Positions 16,527 through 49,280 of a stretch of DNA of 64,000 bases are shown in pieces. The stretch spans positions 1-64,000 of IMG/VR virus record IMGVR_UViG_3300047509_000037. One strand, given 5' to 3'. Under the pieces are notes generated by a model. It was not told the origin of the DNA, did no database searches, and saw nothing but the letters and a program-made list of their open reading frames with translations. Every line of letters starts with the position of its first letter. The stretch's first letter is position 1. The position numbers were made by a program, and so were the translations under genes. The stretch comes from a virus.

Positions 16527-18614
16527 ATGAAGAAACTTTGGTTGGATTTTGAAACGCGGTCCTTCATCGACCTGAAGGACTGCGGGCTTGACAAGTACGC
16601 GAAAGATGTCACGACTGAAGTGCTCATGCTTGCGTGGGCGTTCGACGACGATGCGGTCAACCTCTGGTTGCCGTGTCTCGGAGAGCCTATGCCCGAAGCA
16701 CTCAAAGCGGGGTTGGAAGACCCCGACGTGATGAAGATGGCGTGGAACTACAACTTCGAGAAAGACATCTTCCAGTATCGCGTGGGAATCATCATCCCGC
16801 AGGCACAGTGGTTTGACCCCAGCGTGCTCTGTGCGTACATGTCCCTGCCTGTCGGCTTGGACCGCGCCGCGAATGCGCTCAACATCGACATTGAGTTGAA
16901 GAAGACTGTTATCACTGGCAAAAATAAGCCTGTGAAGCTATTTTCGGAGCCGTCGAAGCGAACGAAGACGTTCCTCAAAAAGAATCCGGGGATGCCGGAG
17001 TTCTACTACAAAGATTGGAACTCGGACCCAGAGAAGTGGCAGGAGTTCTGCGATTATTGTAAGCAGGACGTTGTGGCAGAACGTGCCGTGTGGTATGGCG
17101 CGGTCGCACTCAATTGCCCCATCACTGAGGAGGAAACTCGTGCGTGGCTGCTCGACCAGCGCATGAACGACACGGGCGTCTACATCGACACGCAGTTCGT
17201 CGCCAACGCGAAGAACATCGCTATCGTCGAAGCCGACGGTCTCGTGAAAGAGACGAAGGACATCACGGGGCTGGAGAACCCGAACTCCCCGAAGCAACTG
17301 AAGGAATGGTTGCAAGCGAGGAAGTATCCGTTCAACTCGCTCGACAAGGCGCACGTTGAGGAAGCCCTGAAAGAAAAAGGGCATCTCTGCCTGCCGCCAC
17401 TTGTCGTTGACGTTCTAGACCTGAAACAAAAACTCGGCGGGTCCGCGTACAAGAAATTGCAGACCATCGAAGACCGCATCGGCAGCGACAGCCGACTGCG
17501 TGACCAGTTCGTCTACCACGGTGCTCACACCGGACGGTGGTCTGGACGCGGCGTGCAGTTACAGAACTTGTTCAAGCCGAGCAAAGATGTCAGCACGTTG
17601 CGTGACCCAATCGTCAACGCAATTCGCGGCAACTCGCTCGACCTCGAACTCATCGTTTCGGAGTACAACAAATCCGTCGCGGAGTTCAACGCGAAGGAAC
17701 CCGACGCGAAAAAACATAAGAAGCCCATCAAGGGCGTCACGACGATGCAGGCGGTCGCAGGCACGATTCGCGCCGCATTCATCCCGACGCCGGGATACAA
17801 ATTCTCCGTAAGCGATTTGGCACAGATTGAGTCCCGCGTTCTCGCGGCTCTCGCTGGTTGTCAGACGATGATTGATGCCTATGCGAAAGGTCTCGACCTT
17901 TACAAAGACATCATGTCGTTCCTGCTCAACAAGCCATACGACACGATTACCAGCGCAGAGCGTGCCGACGGCAAGGTCATCATCCTTGGTTGCGGCTTCG
18001 GCATGGGCTGGGAGAAATTCATTGACTACGCGGCAACGTTCGGTGTTACACTGGACGAGAAGACGGCGAAGACCTACGTCAACGCCTTCCGCGAGAAGTA
18101 CAGCGAGATTCCGGCATACTGGAAGGCTCTCGACAAGGCTTGTGTCACAGCGACGAAGCTGAACATCTGCGTCTACGTCAAAGGCGTGGTCGTCGATGGG
18201 CGCAATCCTGAAATGCTCAAAATCAAATTGCCGTCCCAACGGTGCTTGCATTATCTGCATCCGAAAGTGACGCAAGAGATGACTGAGTGGGGCGCGGTTC
18301 GTGAGGGAGTCTCTTACGAAGCGTTCGACGAGAAAGGTCTTCAACTCAAGCGGCTCTACGGCGGACTCATCTGCGAAAACGTTGTGCAGGCTGTCGCACG
18401 CGACATCCTACTCAACGGAATGTTTGAAGCAGAGAAGGTCGGCTTCAGAATCGTAATGACAATTCACGACGAAGTGGTGGGAGAGTCACCGCTCACTTCT
18501 CCGCTCACGTTCAAGGACATGGAACACGCCATGACACGAACGCCTGAGTGGGCAGAGGGCATGGGGTTCGTTCTCGCTGCGGAAGGATATGACTGTGCTT
18601 ACTACCGAAAGTAA
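16527..18614 (+). CDS. polA: DNA polymerase I-like (family A) with 3'-5' exonuclease
   Basis: 695 residues, ATG preceded by GGAGAG. The exonuclease domain starts LWLDFETRSFIDL (Exo I, Asp7 and Glu9), continues MAWNYNFEKDIF (Exo II) and YCKQDVVAERAVWY (Exo III), so proofreading looks intact. Polymerase motifs: TGRWSGRGVQLQNL near residue 331, SVSDLAQIESRVLAALAG (motif A) near 428, an ILGCGFGMGWEKF O-helix region, and MTIHDEVVGE (motif C) near 644. There is no 5'-3' exonuclease domain. It is the replicative polymerase. Confidence 0.95.
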   Translation: MKKLWLDFETRSFIDLKDCGLDKYAKDVTTEVLMLAWAFDDDAVNLWLPCLGEPMPEALKAGLEDPDVMKMAWNYNFEKDIFQYRVGIIIPQAQWFDPSVLCAYMSLPVGLDRAANALNIDIELKKTVITGKNKPVKLFSEPSKRTKTFLKKNPGMPEFYYKDWNSDPEKWQEFCDYCKQDVVAERAVWYGAVALNCPITEEETRAWLLDQRMNDTGVYIDTQFVANAKNIAIVEADGLVKETKDITGLENPNSPKQLKEWLQARKYPFNSLDKAHVEEALKEKGHLCLPPLVVDVLDLKQKLGGSAYKKLQTIEDRIGSDSRLRDQFVYHGAHTGRWSGRGVQLQNLFKPSKDVSTLRDPIVNAIRGNSLDLELIVSEYNKSVAEFNAKEPDAKKHKKPIKGVTTMQAVAGTIRAAFIPTPGYKFSVSDLAQIESRVLAALAGCQTMIDAYAKGLDLYKDIMSFLLNKPYDTITSAERADGKVIILGCGFGMGWEKFIDYAATFGVTLDEKTAKTYVNAFREKYSEIPAYWKALDKACVTATKLNICVYVKGVVVDGRNPEMLKIKLPSQRCLHYLHPKVTQEMTEWGAVREGVSYEAFDEKGLQLKRLYGGLICENVVQAVARDILLNGMFEAEKVGFRIVMTIHDEVVGESPLTSPLTFKDMEHAMTRTPEWAEGMGFVLAAEGYDCAYYRK

Positions 18615-18709: not shown

Positions 18710-19126
18710 ATGAAAGAAAACATGACACGACAAACATTGTGGGCGCGACGGAATTATAAGAAGAACCGTCGCAAACGTCTCGCATGGGAGAAGTCACACC
18801 AGATTCTCCTCATGTGGCACCGAGCGAAAAATCGCGCAAAGAAGTTGGGCGTGCCTTTCACCATATCGGTCGAAGACATTCAGATTCCGAAAGTCTGTCC
18901 TGTTCTTCACACCCCTATTCGATGGCGTGCGAAGAATCGTGACAACTCTCCGAGTTTGGACAGGCGACGTGCGGACCTCGGTTACGTGCCGGGAAACGTC
19001 GTGGTCATATCAAACCGAGCGAATCGAATCAAGAGCGATGCGACTGCGGCGGAACTCTGGTTCGTCTGGAACTATTGTCGTCGTCAAATTTTGCTTGACA
19101 CAGGCGTCGATAACCTGCTAGGGTAA
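18710..19126 (+). CDS. HNH-type endonuclease (SPSLDRR family)
   Basis: 138 residues from the ATG at 18710 (another ATG four codons on). N-terminal AKNRAKKLGVPFTISVEDI, then VCPVLHTPI, NSPSLDRRRADLGYVPGNVVVIS and RANRIKSDATAAEL. This layout matches a phage endonuclease family found free-standing. It lies just after polA. Decayed and intact relatives are at 26728-26950 and 49514-49996. Confidence 0.85.
   Translation: MKENMTRQTLWARRNYKKNRRKRLAWEKSHQILLMWHRAKNRAKKLGVPFTISVEDIQIPKVCPVLHTPIRWRAKNRDNSPSLDRRRADLGYVPGNVVVISNRANRIKSDATAAELWFVWNYCRRQILLDTGVDNLLG
19095..19124 (+). promoter_or_regulatory. Promoter TTGACA-N18-TAGGGT
   Basis: TTGACA 19095-19100 and TAGGGT 19119-19124 near the end of the HNH gene, facing the small membrane protein and the tmRNA. 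The same TTGACA-N18-TAG arrangement occurs at 40333 and 45449. Confidence 0.5.
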
Positions 19127-19188
19127 AAGAGTGAGCGGGGATGGCAGATGCCTCGACCCGTAGGGTGGCAACCTGCCTATCCGCCATT

Positions 19189-19202
19189 TGTTACAAATAA
19201 CA
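19189..19202. promoter_or_regulatory. Dispersed palindrome TGTTA-CAAA-TAACA
   Basis: Perfect 5-bp arms, immediately upstream of the AGGAGG ribosome-binding site of the 72-aa gene. In this position a bound protein could block translation or transcription start. Member of the GTTA-N4-TAAC family. Confidence 0.5.
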
Positions 19203-19211
19203 GGAGGAAAC

Positions 19212-19430
19212 ATGGACATCCTGGGATACCTGATTGGACTGCTGGTGGGCGCTGCCCTCGGCTACGCATTTCGCGGACGCATTCGTTCGACCATCGGTAC
19301 GGTCGGCGCGACTGCCAAGCTGGGCGCAGTGAAGGCGAAGACGGCTGTTGTGAAAGACGCCGTTGATGCTCACGCCGCCGTGGTTGCCGATGTGCATACC
19401 GCCATCGAAGACCTCGACAAGAAACTTTAA
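19212..19430 (+). CDS. Small membrane protein
   Basis: 72 residues, ATG with AGGAGG. N-terminal transmembrane segment ILGYLIGLLVGAALGYAF, then a charged amphipathic Ala/Val-rich helix (VKAKTAVVKDAVDAHAAVV). Similar single-TM plus helix peptides occur in phages without known function; holin-like action is possible. First gene after the TTGACA-N18-TAGGGT promoter. Confidence 0.7.
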   Translation: MDILGYLIGLLVGAALGYAFRGRIRSTIGTVGATAKLGAVKAKTAVVKDAVDAHAAVVADVHTAIEDLDKKL

Positions 19431-19578
19431 CCAAGATTCCCGAACGGATGGGTAGCGTGCGGCTGACCAGTGGATGCGACAAGAAACCCCACACAGCGGA
19501 CGAGGCTTTGGCTCAGTAGGGAAATGACATCGGGACGGCGAGGGGCGGAAGAAGGCTAAACTCATACCTCAACTAGTT

Positions 19579-19979
19579 GTGCCGAGCCTTTCTAGTAGGC
19601 ACATGCCGCGACGATTTACGCACGTATGAAGCGCAGGCTTCTGTTGTCGGACGCGGGTTCGACTCCCGCCGCCTCCACCAAGAGCACCAATAATTCCGAC
19701 GGCACCCTTCAGAGGGGACTCGCCGCGAGTATAGAGGGATTTCTGAATTGGTGTTCTTGACGGGGGCGTCATGGTTTCGACGGCGGCTGATGCAGGCGGG
19801 GACGTGCCGGGGTGCTGTGGCTCACCGACCGAAAGGTTAGAGCGCAAGAACGAGTTGCGCCAACGAGACATCAGAAAAAACACTTGCTAAGACTAACACT
19901 CTTGCAATGGGCGCTGCCGCTGGTCGGTAGTTCTCACGCGGCTTGGTCCCCACCGTGTCAAATAACGGGGACACTTTTT
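19579..19979 (+). ncRNA. ssrA: Circularly permuted tmRNA (ssrA-like) precursor
   Basis: The 3' acceptor half comes first: T-arm GCGGGTTCGACTCCCGC, acceptor strand CGCCTCC and encoded ACCA ending at 19680. After an 81-nt intervening segment comes the 5' half, starting GGGGGCG at 19762 followed by the tmRNA-typical TGGTTTCGACGG. GGGGGCG pairs with CGCCTCC in all 7 positions (one G-U). Directly beyond the acceptor ends, AAGAGCACCAAT (19680-19691) pairs with ATTGGTGTTCTT (19747-19758), extending the stem by 12 bp (one G-U) as expected for a permuted precursor. ACGTGC in the 5' half complements GCACGT in the 3' half (helix 2). A tag reading frame runs 19859-19930. A GTGTC/GACAC hairpin followed by TTTTT closes the gene. 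The left boundary is approximate. Confidence 0.85.
19859..19930 (+). other. Predicted tmRNA tag reading frame
   Basis: GCC AAC GAG ACA ... GGT CGG TAG encodes a 23-residue tag beginning ANETSEK and ending MGAAAGR. The start matches the common Ala-Asn-Glu/Asp tag opening. The end lacks the Leu-Ala-Ala type proteolysis signal usual for cellular tags. Frame assignment is by analogy to the resume codon and needs support from folding. Confidence 0.55.
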
Positions 19980-19994
19980 CTCAGGAGAACCAAC

Positions 19995-20261
19995 ATGAGC
20001 AAAGAATCGACATCCGTCAGCGTGGGCTTTCCGCTGGCAAGCATTCTCACCGTCATCTTCGTCATTGCGAAGTTGATGGGCACCGTGGCGTGGTCTTGGT
20101 GGTGGGTGTTCTCACCGCTGTGGATTAGCGCCCTTCTCGGCATCGGTGTCTTCGTCATCATCATCATCATGGTCGTGGCGGCAATCATCGCCGTCATCGC
20201 CGCAATTCTCGACAAGTTCACGGGCACACGCTGTTGTGGAACACCGGGGAAATCTCGGTGA
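19995..20261 (+). CDS. Small membrane protein, two to three TM segments
   Basis: 88 residues from the ATG at 19995 (CAGGAG upstream). Hydrophobic runs: FPLASILTVIFVIAKLMG, FSPLWISALLGIGVFVIIII and MVVAAIIAVIAAIL; ends with a basic Cys-containing tail. Size and topology fit a holin or superinfection-type membrane protein. No family recognised. It follows the tmRNA terminator-like hairpin by 15 bp. Confidence 0.7.
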   Translation: MSKESTSVSVGFPLASILTVIFVIAKLMGTVAWSWWWVFSPLWISALLGIGVFVIIIIMVVAAIIAVIAAILDKFTGTRCCGTPGKSR

Positions 20262-20333
20262 ACAGCTACGCAAAGAGTCCCTGACTGATTGAACGGCTGG
20301 CAATTCTAGAACAAGCCACGCCTAGTAATCTTT

Positions 20334-20368
20334 GTGGACCGGAGGTTCGACTCCTCAGGTGCCCACCA
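20334..20368 (+). tRNA. tRNA-like 3' element (T-arm, acceptor strand, CCA)
   Basis: ACCGGAGGTTCGACTCCTC then AGGTGCCC and ACCA at 20365-20368 form a T-arm and an acceptor 3' strand with encoded CCA. No matching GGGCACC 5' strand lies at normal tRNA distance; the nearest GGGCAC (20222) is inside the upstream coding gene. It may be a degenerate tRNA, part of a split tRNA or another tmRNA-like piece. Confidence 0.35.
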
Positions 20369-20384
20369 GATTTACGGAGGAAGC

Positions 20385-20663
20385 ATGAGTGAAGAACGCG
20401 ACATGGACAAAGCGATGACTGACAACGTTCAGGAGCGCATGGAAATCGGGCGTGCGATGATTCGCCGTTCGGTTGCTGCCGACGCAGTGTTGGAAATTCA
20501 CCCGTTCGACCTGTTCCACAAGATTCGCAACCCTCTCGTCATTGACGTGCTGATGCTCAACATGTTCGACCGCCAGTTCTACGTCATCGACGGAGAAGTG
20601 TGCGAGGTCGCCGTCGTCCCGAACAAGACCAAGTTGGCTGATGTGATGGACCCGTCCAAGTGA
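20385..20663 (+). CDS. Hypothetical protein
   Basis: 92 residues from the ATG at 20385 (GGAGGAAG upstream). Acidic N-terminal helix (MSEERDMDKAMTDNVQERME), hydrophobic core IRNPLVIDVLMLNMFDRQFYVID. No domain recognised. Its stop overlaps the next GTG (GTGA). Confidence 0.75.
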   Translation: MSEERDMDKAMTDNVQERMEIGRAMIRRSVAADAVLEIHPFDLFHKIRNPLVIDVLMLNMFDRQFYVIDGEVCEVAVVPNKTKLADVMDPSK

Positions 20664-20812: not shown

Positions 20813-21418
20813 ATGAGTGGAGTTCTCATCACCAGCGACGAGCACTACGGGCACGAGCGCATCATCGAACTCGCCAATCGTCCGTTCGTCTCCGTCGAGG
20901 AGATGCAGGAAACCATCATTGAGCGGCACAACAAGAAAGTTCCGAACAACCCTAACTACCTGACGATTCACGCCGGGGATTTGTTCTGGCATTCGATGAA
21001 CTCAAGCGATGCCGCTGTCATTCTCACGCGGCTGCACGGGCGTCACGCGTTCCTGTACGGCAACCACGACGAACTCATCGAAGGCAACCAATTTCTCCAG
21101 ATGATGTTCAAGTGGGTGAAGGGTAAGAACAAGGTTGGCGGCGCGACCACCATCAATCACAACAAGCACAGCCTGACCATCTCGCATTTCGCTCGACGTG
21201 TTTGGCAATCCAGCCACAAAGGACACTGGCACGTTTACGGGCACTCGCACTCGGCGCTCCCCGGACTCGGCAAGTCGTTCGACATTGGTGTGGACGGCAA
21301 TGACTTTACTCCGTGGGCGCTGGAGGAAATCGAAGCGAAGATGAACTCGCTACCTCAGCATCACACCATCAACACACCGGAGCCGGGAGCACTGATGTGG
21401 TCGATGATGGGAATCTGA
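20813..21418 (+). CDS. Calcineurin-like metallophosphoesterase
   Basis: 201 residues. All five metallophosphatase blocks are visible: SDEHYGH (Asp9, His11), HAGDLFW (Asp56), YGNHD (Asn84, His85), ISHFARR and VYGHSHS. It hydrolyses phosphoesters with two metal ions; phage members are linked to nucleotide or nucleic-acid repair. RBS GGAG before ATG. Ends where a small Cys protein begins in another frame. Confidence 0.9.
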   Translation: MSGVLITSDEHYGHERIIELANRPFVSVEEMQETIIERHNKKVPNNPNYLTIHAGDLFWHSMNSSDAAVILTRLHGRHAFLYGNHDELIEGNQFLQMMFKWVKGKNKVGGATTINHNKHSLTISHFARRVWQSSHKGHWHVYGHSHSALPGLGKSFDIGVDGNDFTPWALEEIEAKMNSLPQHHTINTPEPGALMWSMMGI

Positions 21419-47012: not shown

Positions 47013-47468
47013 ATGGCTCGTGCAGGAAAGAAAGACGTTCTCGCCGCAGGCGGGAGCAAGATGGTCATCGCAGGCGGCATTGGAGAGAGCGACCCGCTAC
47101 GCAACGTATCGAAGGAAGGGCGTGACGACACACCGATTCCAGCGTTCGAGAAACCTGTCGAACCCAAGATGGAGTTCATCCCCAAGAACGGTCACATCCT
47201 CGTTCGCCGCGACACCCCGGTCGAAGCGAAGGGTCTGGTCGAACTGGTGCAGGACGAAGCCGCGAAAGAAAAACCTGCTCAGGGCATCGTGCTTGAGACG
47301 AATTGTGTTGACTACGTCGTCGGCACTCGTGTAGTGTTTGGAAAGTATTCGGGCACTGAGTTCAAGCTGAACGGCGAGTTGCTGCTCATCATGCGTGACG
47401 AAGACGTTCAAGGGCTGCTCGTGCAGGCGGAACCCGACAGCGAAGTAGAAATCGAAATCCTTCCGTAG
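47013..47468 (+). CDS. GroES-like co-chaperonin
   Basis: 151 residues with a 50-residue N-terminal extension. GHILVRRDTPVEAKGLVELV is the GroES opening strand and start of the mobile loop; IVLETN, VGTRVVFGKYSGTEFKLNGE and LLLIMRDEDVQGLL match the Cpn10 C-terminal half. It caps host GroEL to help fold phage proteins, as T4 gp31 does. RBS AGGAGA. Confidence 0.88.
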   Translation: MARAGKKDVLAAGGSKMVIAGGIGESDPLRNVSKEGRDDTPIPAFEKPVEPKMEFIPKNGHILVRRDTPVEAKGLVELVQDEAAKEKPAQGIVLETNCVDYVVGTRVVFGKYSGTEFKLNGELLLIMRDEDVQGLLVQAEPDSEVEIEILP

Positions 47469-47479
47469 AGGAGTCCAAC

Positions 47480-48226
47480 ATGGAGAAAGCTGCAATCGTC
47501 GGAGACGCGGACGTATCTCGCGCAACACACGTCCGCCGCCGCATCACCAATCTGGTCAAGGCAGCCAACACGAGCGACTTTGACCTTGCCGAATTGTTCC
47601 ACGAGTCAAAGAAGAACCAGTACCCCGCGATGTGGGGCTTCGAGTCCTTCTCTGCTTACGGCAAGGCTCTGGCGAAGGACTACAACTTCAAGTGGACGAA
47701 GGTCTACTACCTGACTCGCATTGCTGAGAACATGGAAGCCGCGAAGCTGGAGCGTTCGCAGTACGAACCCGTTGGCAAGACCAAGCTGCGAATGATTTCC
47801 CGGCTGAAGCCTGACACCGAGTTCAACGGCGTCTCCGTCTCTATCCTGATTCGGGAACTGACGCTGAAGGCTGGGCAGATGTCACCAGACGAAGTCCAGT
47901 ACGAGGTCGATAAGATTCTCGGACTGACGGAAGATGAGTCGATGTCATGGCTCAACATCCGTGTGAAGAAGATGGCGAAGGACAACGTCATCATGCCGTC
48001 CATCGCTCTCGCAAAGAAACACATCGGGAGCGTTGGGCAGGACGAAGAAGGACAGTCGCAGGACGCAAGTGAAGGTCGCTGTCTCGAACTCATCTGTGCG
48101 AACTTCCTCGCGGACCCGAACTACAACAACGAGCAACCGCCGGATACCGCCGCGAAGATTCAAGCAGCCGCCGATGCAACCGAGGCGGCGCAAGAGGAAA
48201 ACGAACAACCAACCAACGACGAATAA
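47480..48226 (+). CDS. Hypothetical protein
   Basis: 248 residues, AGGAG upstream. Helical N-terminal part (NLVKAANTSDFDLAELFHES), WGFESFSAYGKALAKDYNFK resembles a helical DNA-binding arrangement, acidic C-terminus (EAAQEENEQPTNDE). Between GroES and Clp-like genes. No family recognised. Confidence 0.75.
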   Translation: MEKAAIVGDADVSRATHVRRRITNLVKAANTSDFDLAELFHESKKNQYPAMWGFESFSAYGKALAKDYNFKWTKVYYLTRIAENMEAAKLERSQYEPVGKTKLRMISRLKPDTEFNGVSVSILIRELTLKAGQMSPDEVQYEVDKILGLTEDESMSWLNIRVKKMAKDNVIMPSIALAKKHIGSVGQDEEGQSQDASEGRCLELICANFLADPNYNNEQPPDTAAKIQAAADATEAAQEENEQPTNDE

Positions 48227-48239
48227 CTGGAGGGTGCCA

Positions 48240-49280
48240 ATGCCATTCCGAAAGCTGGACATCACCCGCAAGACTGGTGAGGCAACCGCTCTGGCAACGA
48301 AACTCGAAGGACTCATCGTGGGACAGCGGGCACCTAAAGACGCTCTCCTGTCGGTCGTAGACCGCATCCAAAGTGGGTTCTATGACAAGACGAGACCCGT
48401 CGGCATCTTCCTCTTTCTCGGACCCACCGGGACGGGAAAGACCGGAGTAGCCGAGGCGTTCACGATGGGTCTGTTCAATAACCCGAAGATGTTGATGAAG
48501 GTGGATTGCGCAGAGTTCCAGCACTCGCACGAGATTGCGAAGCTAGTTGGCAGCCCTCCCGGTTATCTGGGACACCGCGAGACGCATCCGTACTTCACCA
48601 ACAATTCGCTCAAGGCGCATCGCACCGATGCCTTTCCATTCACGCCGATTCTGTTCGACGAGATTGAGAAGGCAAGCGACTCACTCTGGAATCTCCTGCT
48701 GGGTATTCTGGATAAGGGCACGCTCACGACGGGCGCCAACGAAGTCGTGGACATGAAGCCCACAATCATTTTGATGACCAGCAACGTCGGGGCGTCGGAG
48801 ATGTCGGAAGACAAGTCTCTGGGCTTCGTCGGCAAGACCACAGTTGATGATGCCAAGCTGGAGTCAATCGCTCTGGCGGCGGCACGGCGGAAGTTCTCGC
48901 CGGAGTTCCTGAACCGCATCGACTACATTTTGAACTTCAAGACTCTGACTGAAGACGAACTCAAACAGGTTCTCGCGCTTCAGTTGCAATTGCTTCAAGA
49001 CCGCATCGTCGTTGACTCGAAGGTGCTCTTTGAACTGCGTGTCTCCAGCCGGGGACTCGCGCAATTGCTGGTGGATGGTTATGACCGTCGCTACAACGCA
49101 CGGCATCTCAAGCGGACGATAGACAAACACATCTCCGCTCCGCTAACGAGTCTTGTCGCCACGGGGCAGATAATGAACGAAGACGTTGTCATCGTTGACT
49201 ACCTCGAAGGCGACTGGCGATATGTGGCAGTACCGAGGGCGAATGCTCCCCAAGGCGATTTCTCAGGCAGTCTACCGTAG
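48240..49280 (+). CDS. ClpB/ClpA-type AAA+ unfoldase, single AAA domain
   Basis: 346 residues from the ATG at 48240 (GGAGGG upstream). It corresponds to the second AAA domain of ClpA/B: LFLGPTGTGKTGVAE (Walker A, 61-68), SPPGYLGH (pore loop), ILFDEIEKAS (Walker B), IILMTSNVGA (sensor 1), FLNRIDYI (Arg finger), YNARHLKRTIDKHI (sensor 2). No N-domain or first ATPase. Unfolds or remodels proteins, alone or with host partners. The C-terminus overlaps the next HNH. Confidence 0.9.
   Translation: MPFRKLDITRKTGEATALATKLEGLIVGQRAPKDALLSVVDRIQSGFYDKTRPVGIFLFLGPTGTGKTGVAEAFTMGLFNNPKMLMKVDCAEFQHSHEIAKLVGSPPGYLGHRETHPYFTNNSLKAHRTDAFPFTPILFDEIEKASDSLWNLLLGILDKGTLTTGANEVVDMKPTIILMTSNVGASEMSEDKSLGFVGKTTVDDAKLESIALAAARRKFSPEFLNRIDYILNFKTLTEDELKQVLALQLQLLQDRIVVDSKVLFELRVSSRGLAQLLVDGYDRRYNARHLKRTIDKHISAPLTSLVATGQIMNEDVVIVDYLEGDWRYVAVPRANAPQGDFSGSLP

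Follow-up and report, generated by a model that had tools for sequence, protein, structure and literature searches.

The window, a 64,000-nucleotide stretch of a 96,151-base IMG/VR virus record, carries an intact and conserved circularly permuted tmRNA gene, and the phage to which it belongs very probably infects Acidobacteriota. In the reading that we favor, with a probability of roughly 0.85, this RNA is processed into two pieces, is charged by the host, rescues stalled ribosomes with a tag that does not end in LAA, and shares a common permuted ancestry with the tmRNAs of other phages. The gene anatomy, covariation, synteny, phage kinship, and absence of SmpB on which this reading draws were observed directly.

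Anatomy of the permuted tmRNA gene

A sequence-only reading of this DNA had proposed a phage-encoded, circularly permuted tmRNA, and three separate analyses bear it out. ARAGORN calls a permuted tmRNA with the tag AKTNTLAMGAAAGR, the general permuted family in Rfam (RF04321, tmRNA_permuted; curated cut-off of 47 bits) matches positions 19620 to 19946 with 65 bits (E=2.8e-10), and the helices covary among homologs. RF04321 is the sole permuted Rfam model that the window tmRNA passes; the alpha_tmRNA (RF01849, cut-off of 50) and beta_tmRNA (RF01850, cut-off of 84) models, which had been put forward as checks, do not list it at their cut-offs.

The 3' half of the RNA is encoded first and is followed by the 5' half, and the two acceptor strands are complementary. 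The acceptor piece (19620–19680, plus strand) contains the 3' strand of P2 (19620–19625), the T arm, the 3' strand of the acceptor stem, and an encoded CCACCA whose last base is at 19680; its real 5' end may lie further upstream than 19620. An intervening transcribed segment of 81 nt (19681–19761, plus strand), presumed to be removed, leads to the coding piece (19762–19973, plus strand). This second piece opens with the 5' strand of the acceptor stem, GGGGGCG, at 19762 and continues with a D-loop-like TGGTTTCGACGG, the 5' strand of P2 (19802–19807), a region expected to form PK1, the tag frame, and a terminal hairpin. The G3·U70 alanine identity pair is present together with the encoded CCA.

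The ends that had been claimed for the two halves, 19680 for the CCA and 19762 for the 5' half, were found exactly there by direct reading, and the acceptor pairing GGGGGCG/CGCCUCC, the TTTCGACGG assigned to the tmRNA 5' domain, and the P2 pairing of GCACGT with ACGTGC are likewise in place. The 12-bp helix described for the intervening segment also exists, between 19681–19691 and 19747–19757, with the correction that it has 11 contiguous pairs and reaches 12 only if the A of the CCA is counted. The final four bases of the segment, UGAC (19758–19761), face ACCA.

The tag reading frame (19886–19930, plus strand) consists of the resume codon GCU, 14 amino acids, and the stop codon UAG. Beyond it lies the terminal hairpin (19945–19973, plus strand; GTCCCC...GGGGAC), with a variant of the loop found in the relatives of this gene. 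The 3' end assigned by ARAGORN (20021) is too far downstream, as the following gene already begins at 19995, and the coding piece probably ends with the hairpin that finishes near 19973.

Two flanking genes serve as synteny markers, a DNA polymerase I-type gene upstream (16527–18614, plus strand; PHROG 17, 363 bits) and a phosphoesterase gene downstream (20813–21418, plus strand; phrog_547). A scan of 19100–20400 found no sigma-70-like promoter. Single-sequence folding of 19588–19990 is not distinctive (z = -1.38), and the structural claim therefore rests on covariation.

Relatives and covariation

A search of viral contigs with the upstream DNA polymerase identified the relatives L002–L006 (59–75% identity), and a profile search with the polymerase added L312 (74%), L313 (72%), and L317 (55%); the contigs of L313 and L317 stop inside or soon after the polymerase gene. 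A permuted tmRNA lies 3' of the polymerase in L002–L006 and in L312, such that the gene sits just past the polymerase in every found relative whose polymerase is at least 59% identical and whose contig reaches the tmRNA site. The tmRNA of L002, missed by ARAGORN, scores 49 bits with the covariance model and has CCACTG in place of an encoded CCA. That of L005 scores 72.8 bits with alpha_tmRNA (cut-off of 50) and 66.8 bits with beta_tmRNA (cut-off of 84). Motif scans contributed L248, L249, L252, and L023, with L249 and L023 located in jumbo-sized contigs. With window positions 1–25000 as the query, no near-identical phage was found in the phage collection.

Fourteen permuted tmRNA genes were compared side by side. 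All of them form the 7-bp acceptor stem and keep G3·U70, and the stem is swapped as a whole between members (GGGGGCG/CGCCUCC, GGGCUUG/CAAGUCC, GGGCCCG/CGGGUCC, and GGGGACG/CGUCUCC). In the 12 genes that allow its placement, P2 is fully paired (6/6) by six different solutions. The intervening helix is paired at 9 to 10 of 10 positions, in the same register, in 11 of the 14 genes; L023, L249, and Tunturi_3, a cultured phage described below, have short and different intervening segments. In the L249 and L023 segments, the sequence after CCACCA is able to pair with CCACCA itself (CCACCAUAAAAUUUUGGUGG), an arrangement that would mask the CCA until processing.

Covariation was tested on 12 of these genes, with L023 and L249 left out, as no P2 was placed in them. 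Standard pairs fill 97.1% of the 276 pair cells, a share that is favored by the way the alignment was made, with sequences cut by hand to the helices in a fixed register; such cutting cannot itself create double changes. Across P2, the acceptor stem, and the intervening helix, changes on both sides occur at 17 of 23 pairs, including 4 of the 6 pairs of P2. The intervening helix, for which the sequence-only reading had regarded a lack of compensatory change as telling against it, shows double changes at 10 of 10 counted pairs. The covariation score is 0.76 versus 0.195 in shuffles, none of 500 shuffles was as high on any measure, and slid-register controls pair at 36 to 52%.

Host of the phage and cultured relatives

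The terminase of the window has its best match in Tunturi_3 (44%, E=1e-171), with the next match at about 1e-12 among 50,697 phage records. The major capsid protein is 76.7% identical to that of Tunturi_3 and a portal-region protein 67%, and numerous further genes are held in common. Tunturi_3 is a cultured phage of Tunturiibacter (Acidobacteriota), and because of this kinship we assign the window phage, very probably, to a host of the same phylum.

Tunturi_3 encodes a permuted tmRNA of its own (63 bits; L305:39373-39597, minus strand) between its polymerase and phosphoesterase genes. Permuted tmRNAs are also present in Tunturi_4 (79 bits; L127:3971-4380) and in the jumbo phage Tunturi_5 (86 bits; PP885688 157899-158195, minus strand). 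All three genes are unannotated, there being no tmRNA feature at these sites in the sequence records, and the word tmRNA is absent from the paper on the isolation of the Tunturi phages. Tunturi_3, Tunturi_4, and Tunturi_5 are mutually unrelated. A search of Tunturi_1 and Tunturi_2, which are related to each other, found no permuted tmRNA, and three of four unrelated types of cultured Acidobacteriota phage thus carry one.

tmRNA genes of acidobacterial genomes

The 5' motif GGGGGCGTCANGGYWTCGAYGG occurs at no fewer than 118 genome loci, mostly in Acidobacteriota one-piece tmRNAs among the matches listed. ARAGORN calls one-piece genes at these loci nearly throughout, with no convincing permuted gene among them. 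When 396 Acidobacteriota genomes were searched with RF04321, 13 scored over the cut-off; permuted tmRNAs in acidobacterial chromosomes were nevertheless rejected, as the inspected loci are one-piece genes, often a tRNA together with a one-piece tmRNA, and a tRNA just 5' of a one-piece tmRNA imitates the permuted order. Two of 30 loci (L270 and L288) gave no ARAGORN call, and every classifiable acidobacterial genome tmRNA is one-piece. The one-piece tmRNAs of Acidobacteriota, such as that of Edaphobacter/Tunturiibacter lichenicola with the tag AEPQFALAA, differ from the window tmRNA in their standard order, in being a single RNA, and in a 9-aa tag with an LAA end; their 5' end (GGGGGCGTCA) is similar to that of the window tmRNA.

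An odd locus in Edaphobacter aggregans DSM 19364 (L253; G002:C26:54034-54188, minus strand) shows the permuted order: a T arm comes first and a tmRNA-like 5' half second, with a perfect 19-bp intervening stem joining them. No tag was recognized at this locus, and the same genome also has a one-piece tmRNA.

Origin of the permuted gene

Judged by its shared features, the window gene most likely descends from a stock of permuted tmRNAs that is seen in other phages as well. A 14-nt loop, RCYUNGNAACAGAA, caps the hairpin past the tag in 8 of the 14 genes of the window and Acidobacteriota-phage set when at most one mismatch is allowed. The same loop is found in about half of the other phage and prophage permuted genes, including those of Melnitz and of Alcaligenes and Acinetobacter phages, and in none of 199 one-piece genes; in the window gene itself this loop has diverged and does not match at up to two mismatches. 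Similarly, an intervening helix of 7 to 15 bp in near-identical register occurs in other phage permuted tmRNAs, for example L017, L063, L081, L116, L122, and L403, where it starts right after the CCA and stops four bases before G1 (a 0/4 register). This helix is not in the Rfam model alignments shown. The terminal loop common to permuted genes and the shared register of the helix together favor a common permuted stock.

Alternatively, acidobacterial phages could have captured a one-piece tmRNA from acidobacteria and permuted it on their own, which would add a further origin of permuted tmRNA. The loop, the identical 0/4 register, and GUAUGAAG after P2, all shared with other permuted genes, speak against this. 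We consider such an origin unlikely, even though P2 of the GCAUG/CAUGC type and CCGGGGUG, both characteristic of one-piece genes, are retained in several members, and GGGGGCGTCANGGYWTCGAYGG is found where noted above. A tree of the TLD/PK1 region, whose deep nodes are without support, likewise does not nest the family within other permuted genes. The 5' end of the window tmRNA, GGGGGCGTCANGG, resembles acidobacterial one-piece tmRNAs, a likeness that could reflect host ancestry; we gave it little weight, as GGGGGCG is the acceptor strand and is also present in other viral permuted genes (chosen by their acceptor).

Tags and possible partners

The tags of these genes end in AAAGR in the window, L004, L006, and L312, in AAAA in L003, L248, and L249, in AAHA in L005 and L023, and in TAGM in L002. 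L252 has a tag of 26 aa with a VAA end, and the tags of Tunturi_3, Tunturi_4, and Tunturi_5 are long (29, 33, and 34 aa) and basic, for example AKNSPVVRGTAKVLSFARKFVPAVSSTRAFAMAA, with LAA, VAA, or MAA ends. All 14 genes preserve a tag frame with a resume codon and a stop. With AAAGR in place of a hydrophobic LAA or VAA end, the window tag is not of the canonical SsrA degradation type; for E. coli SsrA, non-LAA ends escape ClpXP. Tags of this kind may reflect selection for rescue and not for degradation.

No match to SmpB (PF01668) was found in the window's record or in the relatives, and host SmpB must therefore serve. A ClpA/ClpC-D2-like single-ring AAA+ protein is encoded at 48033–49280 (plus strand) and also in the records of L003, L004, L006, L023, and L249, with the ClpP-docking tripeptide [LI]GF in the window phage and all five relatives (GFGF in one). 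That this protein is a partner of the tag is conjecture. A private tagging system, in which host ClpXP does not read AAAGR and the like and the phage AAA+ protein either picks the tagged products for unfolding with host ClpP or leaves them undegraded, seems to us improbable. Near the AAA+ gene is a GroES-like (Cpn10) gene (47013–47468), and this proximity suggests a protein-quality cluster.

Genes with an RF-1 domain (ArfB-like) are found in Tunturi_3 (ORF125, by annotation), in Tunturi_4 (ORF53, which adjoins the tmRNA), and in the jumbo contigs G407 and G408, all of which also carry a permuted tmRNA. As a partner of the window tmRNA such a gene was rejected, being absent from the window phage.

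Proposed function and alternatives

For transcription, processing, charging, activity, the fate of tagged proteins, and the route of acquisition, we infer the following scheme. A single precursor would be transcribed, its intervening segment folding back between the CCA and a point just before the 5' half, and host RNase P together with 3' processing would cut this segment out. The acceptor and coding pieces would stay joined through the acceptor stem and P2, and host AlaRS would charge the RNA through G3·U70. Host EF-Tu and SmpB could then bring the charged tmRNA to ribosomes stalled in infection, where the 14-residue tag would be added and the ribosome released at UAG, sustaining translation for the phage. 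Fragments tagged with AAAGR would probably be handled otherwise than host-tagged ones, because the tag lacks the ClpXP-type LAA end. Phages infecting hosts with a one-piece tmRNA would have retained or adapted the gene. The functions proposed earlier, ribosome rescue after host mRNA decay and phage-specific tagging, are plausible for the window tmRNA.

The RNA might instead act as a decoy, sequestering SmpB or AlaRS of the host and so blocking host trans-translation, in the manner of the DS6A mycobacteriophage tmRNA, which has no tag. A decoy would not require a resume codon, tag frame, and stop, and their retention throughout the 14 genes makes this function very unlikely. Tag-less RNAs do occur at a related polymerase locus: directly 5' of a polymerase gene that is a distant relative of the window's, the viral contig 3300035034_002275 (L007; 5917–5998) encodes a tmRNA-like RNA of about 80 nt in standard order (RF00023, 56 bits) that is alike in kind to the DS6A RNA, and a 75-nt RNA resembling it is found in L092 at position 1712. 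Tag-less RNA of such kind inhibits E. coli tmRNA (PMC11915505; PMC4131195).

That the gene is a nonfunctional relic, or the remnant of an attachment site from a past integration into the tmRNA gene of a host, is hardly credible: numerous viral contigs do have tmRNA-like sequence near a contig end, as attachment-site fragments might, but the window gene is complete (both halves, tag, and CCA) and lies mid-genome in a phage, all of its helices show compensatory changes across phages about 60% identical in polymerase, the tag frame is kept in all members, and a one-piece host tmRNA could not donate the permuted order.

Relation to known phage tmRNAs

Permuted tmRNAs are less rare in phages than the sequence-only reading had claimed, and two-piece tmRNAs in phages were already known. 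When 18,146 phage genomes were surveyed in 2022, 133 unique tmRNA structures emerged; 53 were two-piece, and 50 of these came from marine or aquatic phages (PMC9004378). A 2025 tmRNA database holds 79 bacteriophage sequences (PMC11915505); we saw further permuted genes in Stenotrophomonas, Alcaligenes, and Acinetobacter phages. What is new here is the soil acidobacterial-phage lineage, its tag ends, and the mismatch in architecture between phage and host, and the lineage with its unusual tags appears to be undescribed so far. Phage two-piece tmRNAs, so far seen in marine phages and phages of Proteobacteria, are thereby extended to Acidobacteriota phages from soil. Because the architectures of these phages and their presumed hosts differ, phage and host RNAs could be told apart within one cell, and with the plaque-forming Tunturi/Tunturiibacter pairs the retention of a phage tmRNA is directly testable.

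The Methylophilales phage Melnitz and the Pelagibacter phage Mosig likewise carry a permuted gene with a tag, and the terminal loop of Melnitz is similar to that of the window's relatives. As in the window phage, their tmRNA is not of the host's own lineage (PMC9004378). Unlike the window phage, however, both are marine and have hosts among the Proteobacteria, the Melnitz tag (ANDNYVPVDYALAA) ends in LAA instead of AAAGR, and their tmRNA has been described with a glutamine riboswitch, whereas no Rfam riboswitch family matched in the window. The Stenotrophomonas (Menderavirus), Alcaligenes, and Acinetobacter phages share both the permuted tmRNA and the intervening helix with the window, but their tmRNAs pass beta_tmRNA (92–94 bits) and that of the window does not. 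The chromosomal genes of RF04321 (alpha, beta, and cyanobacterial) agree with the window gene in order, T arm, acceptor pairing, and tag region; the window gene stands apart from them in its AAAGR tag end and in being carried by a phage whose host phylum uses the one-piece form.
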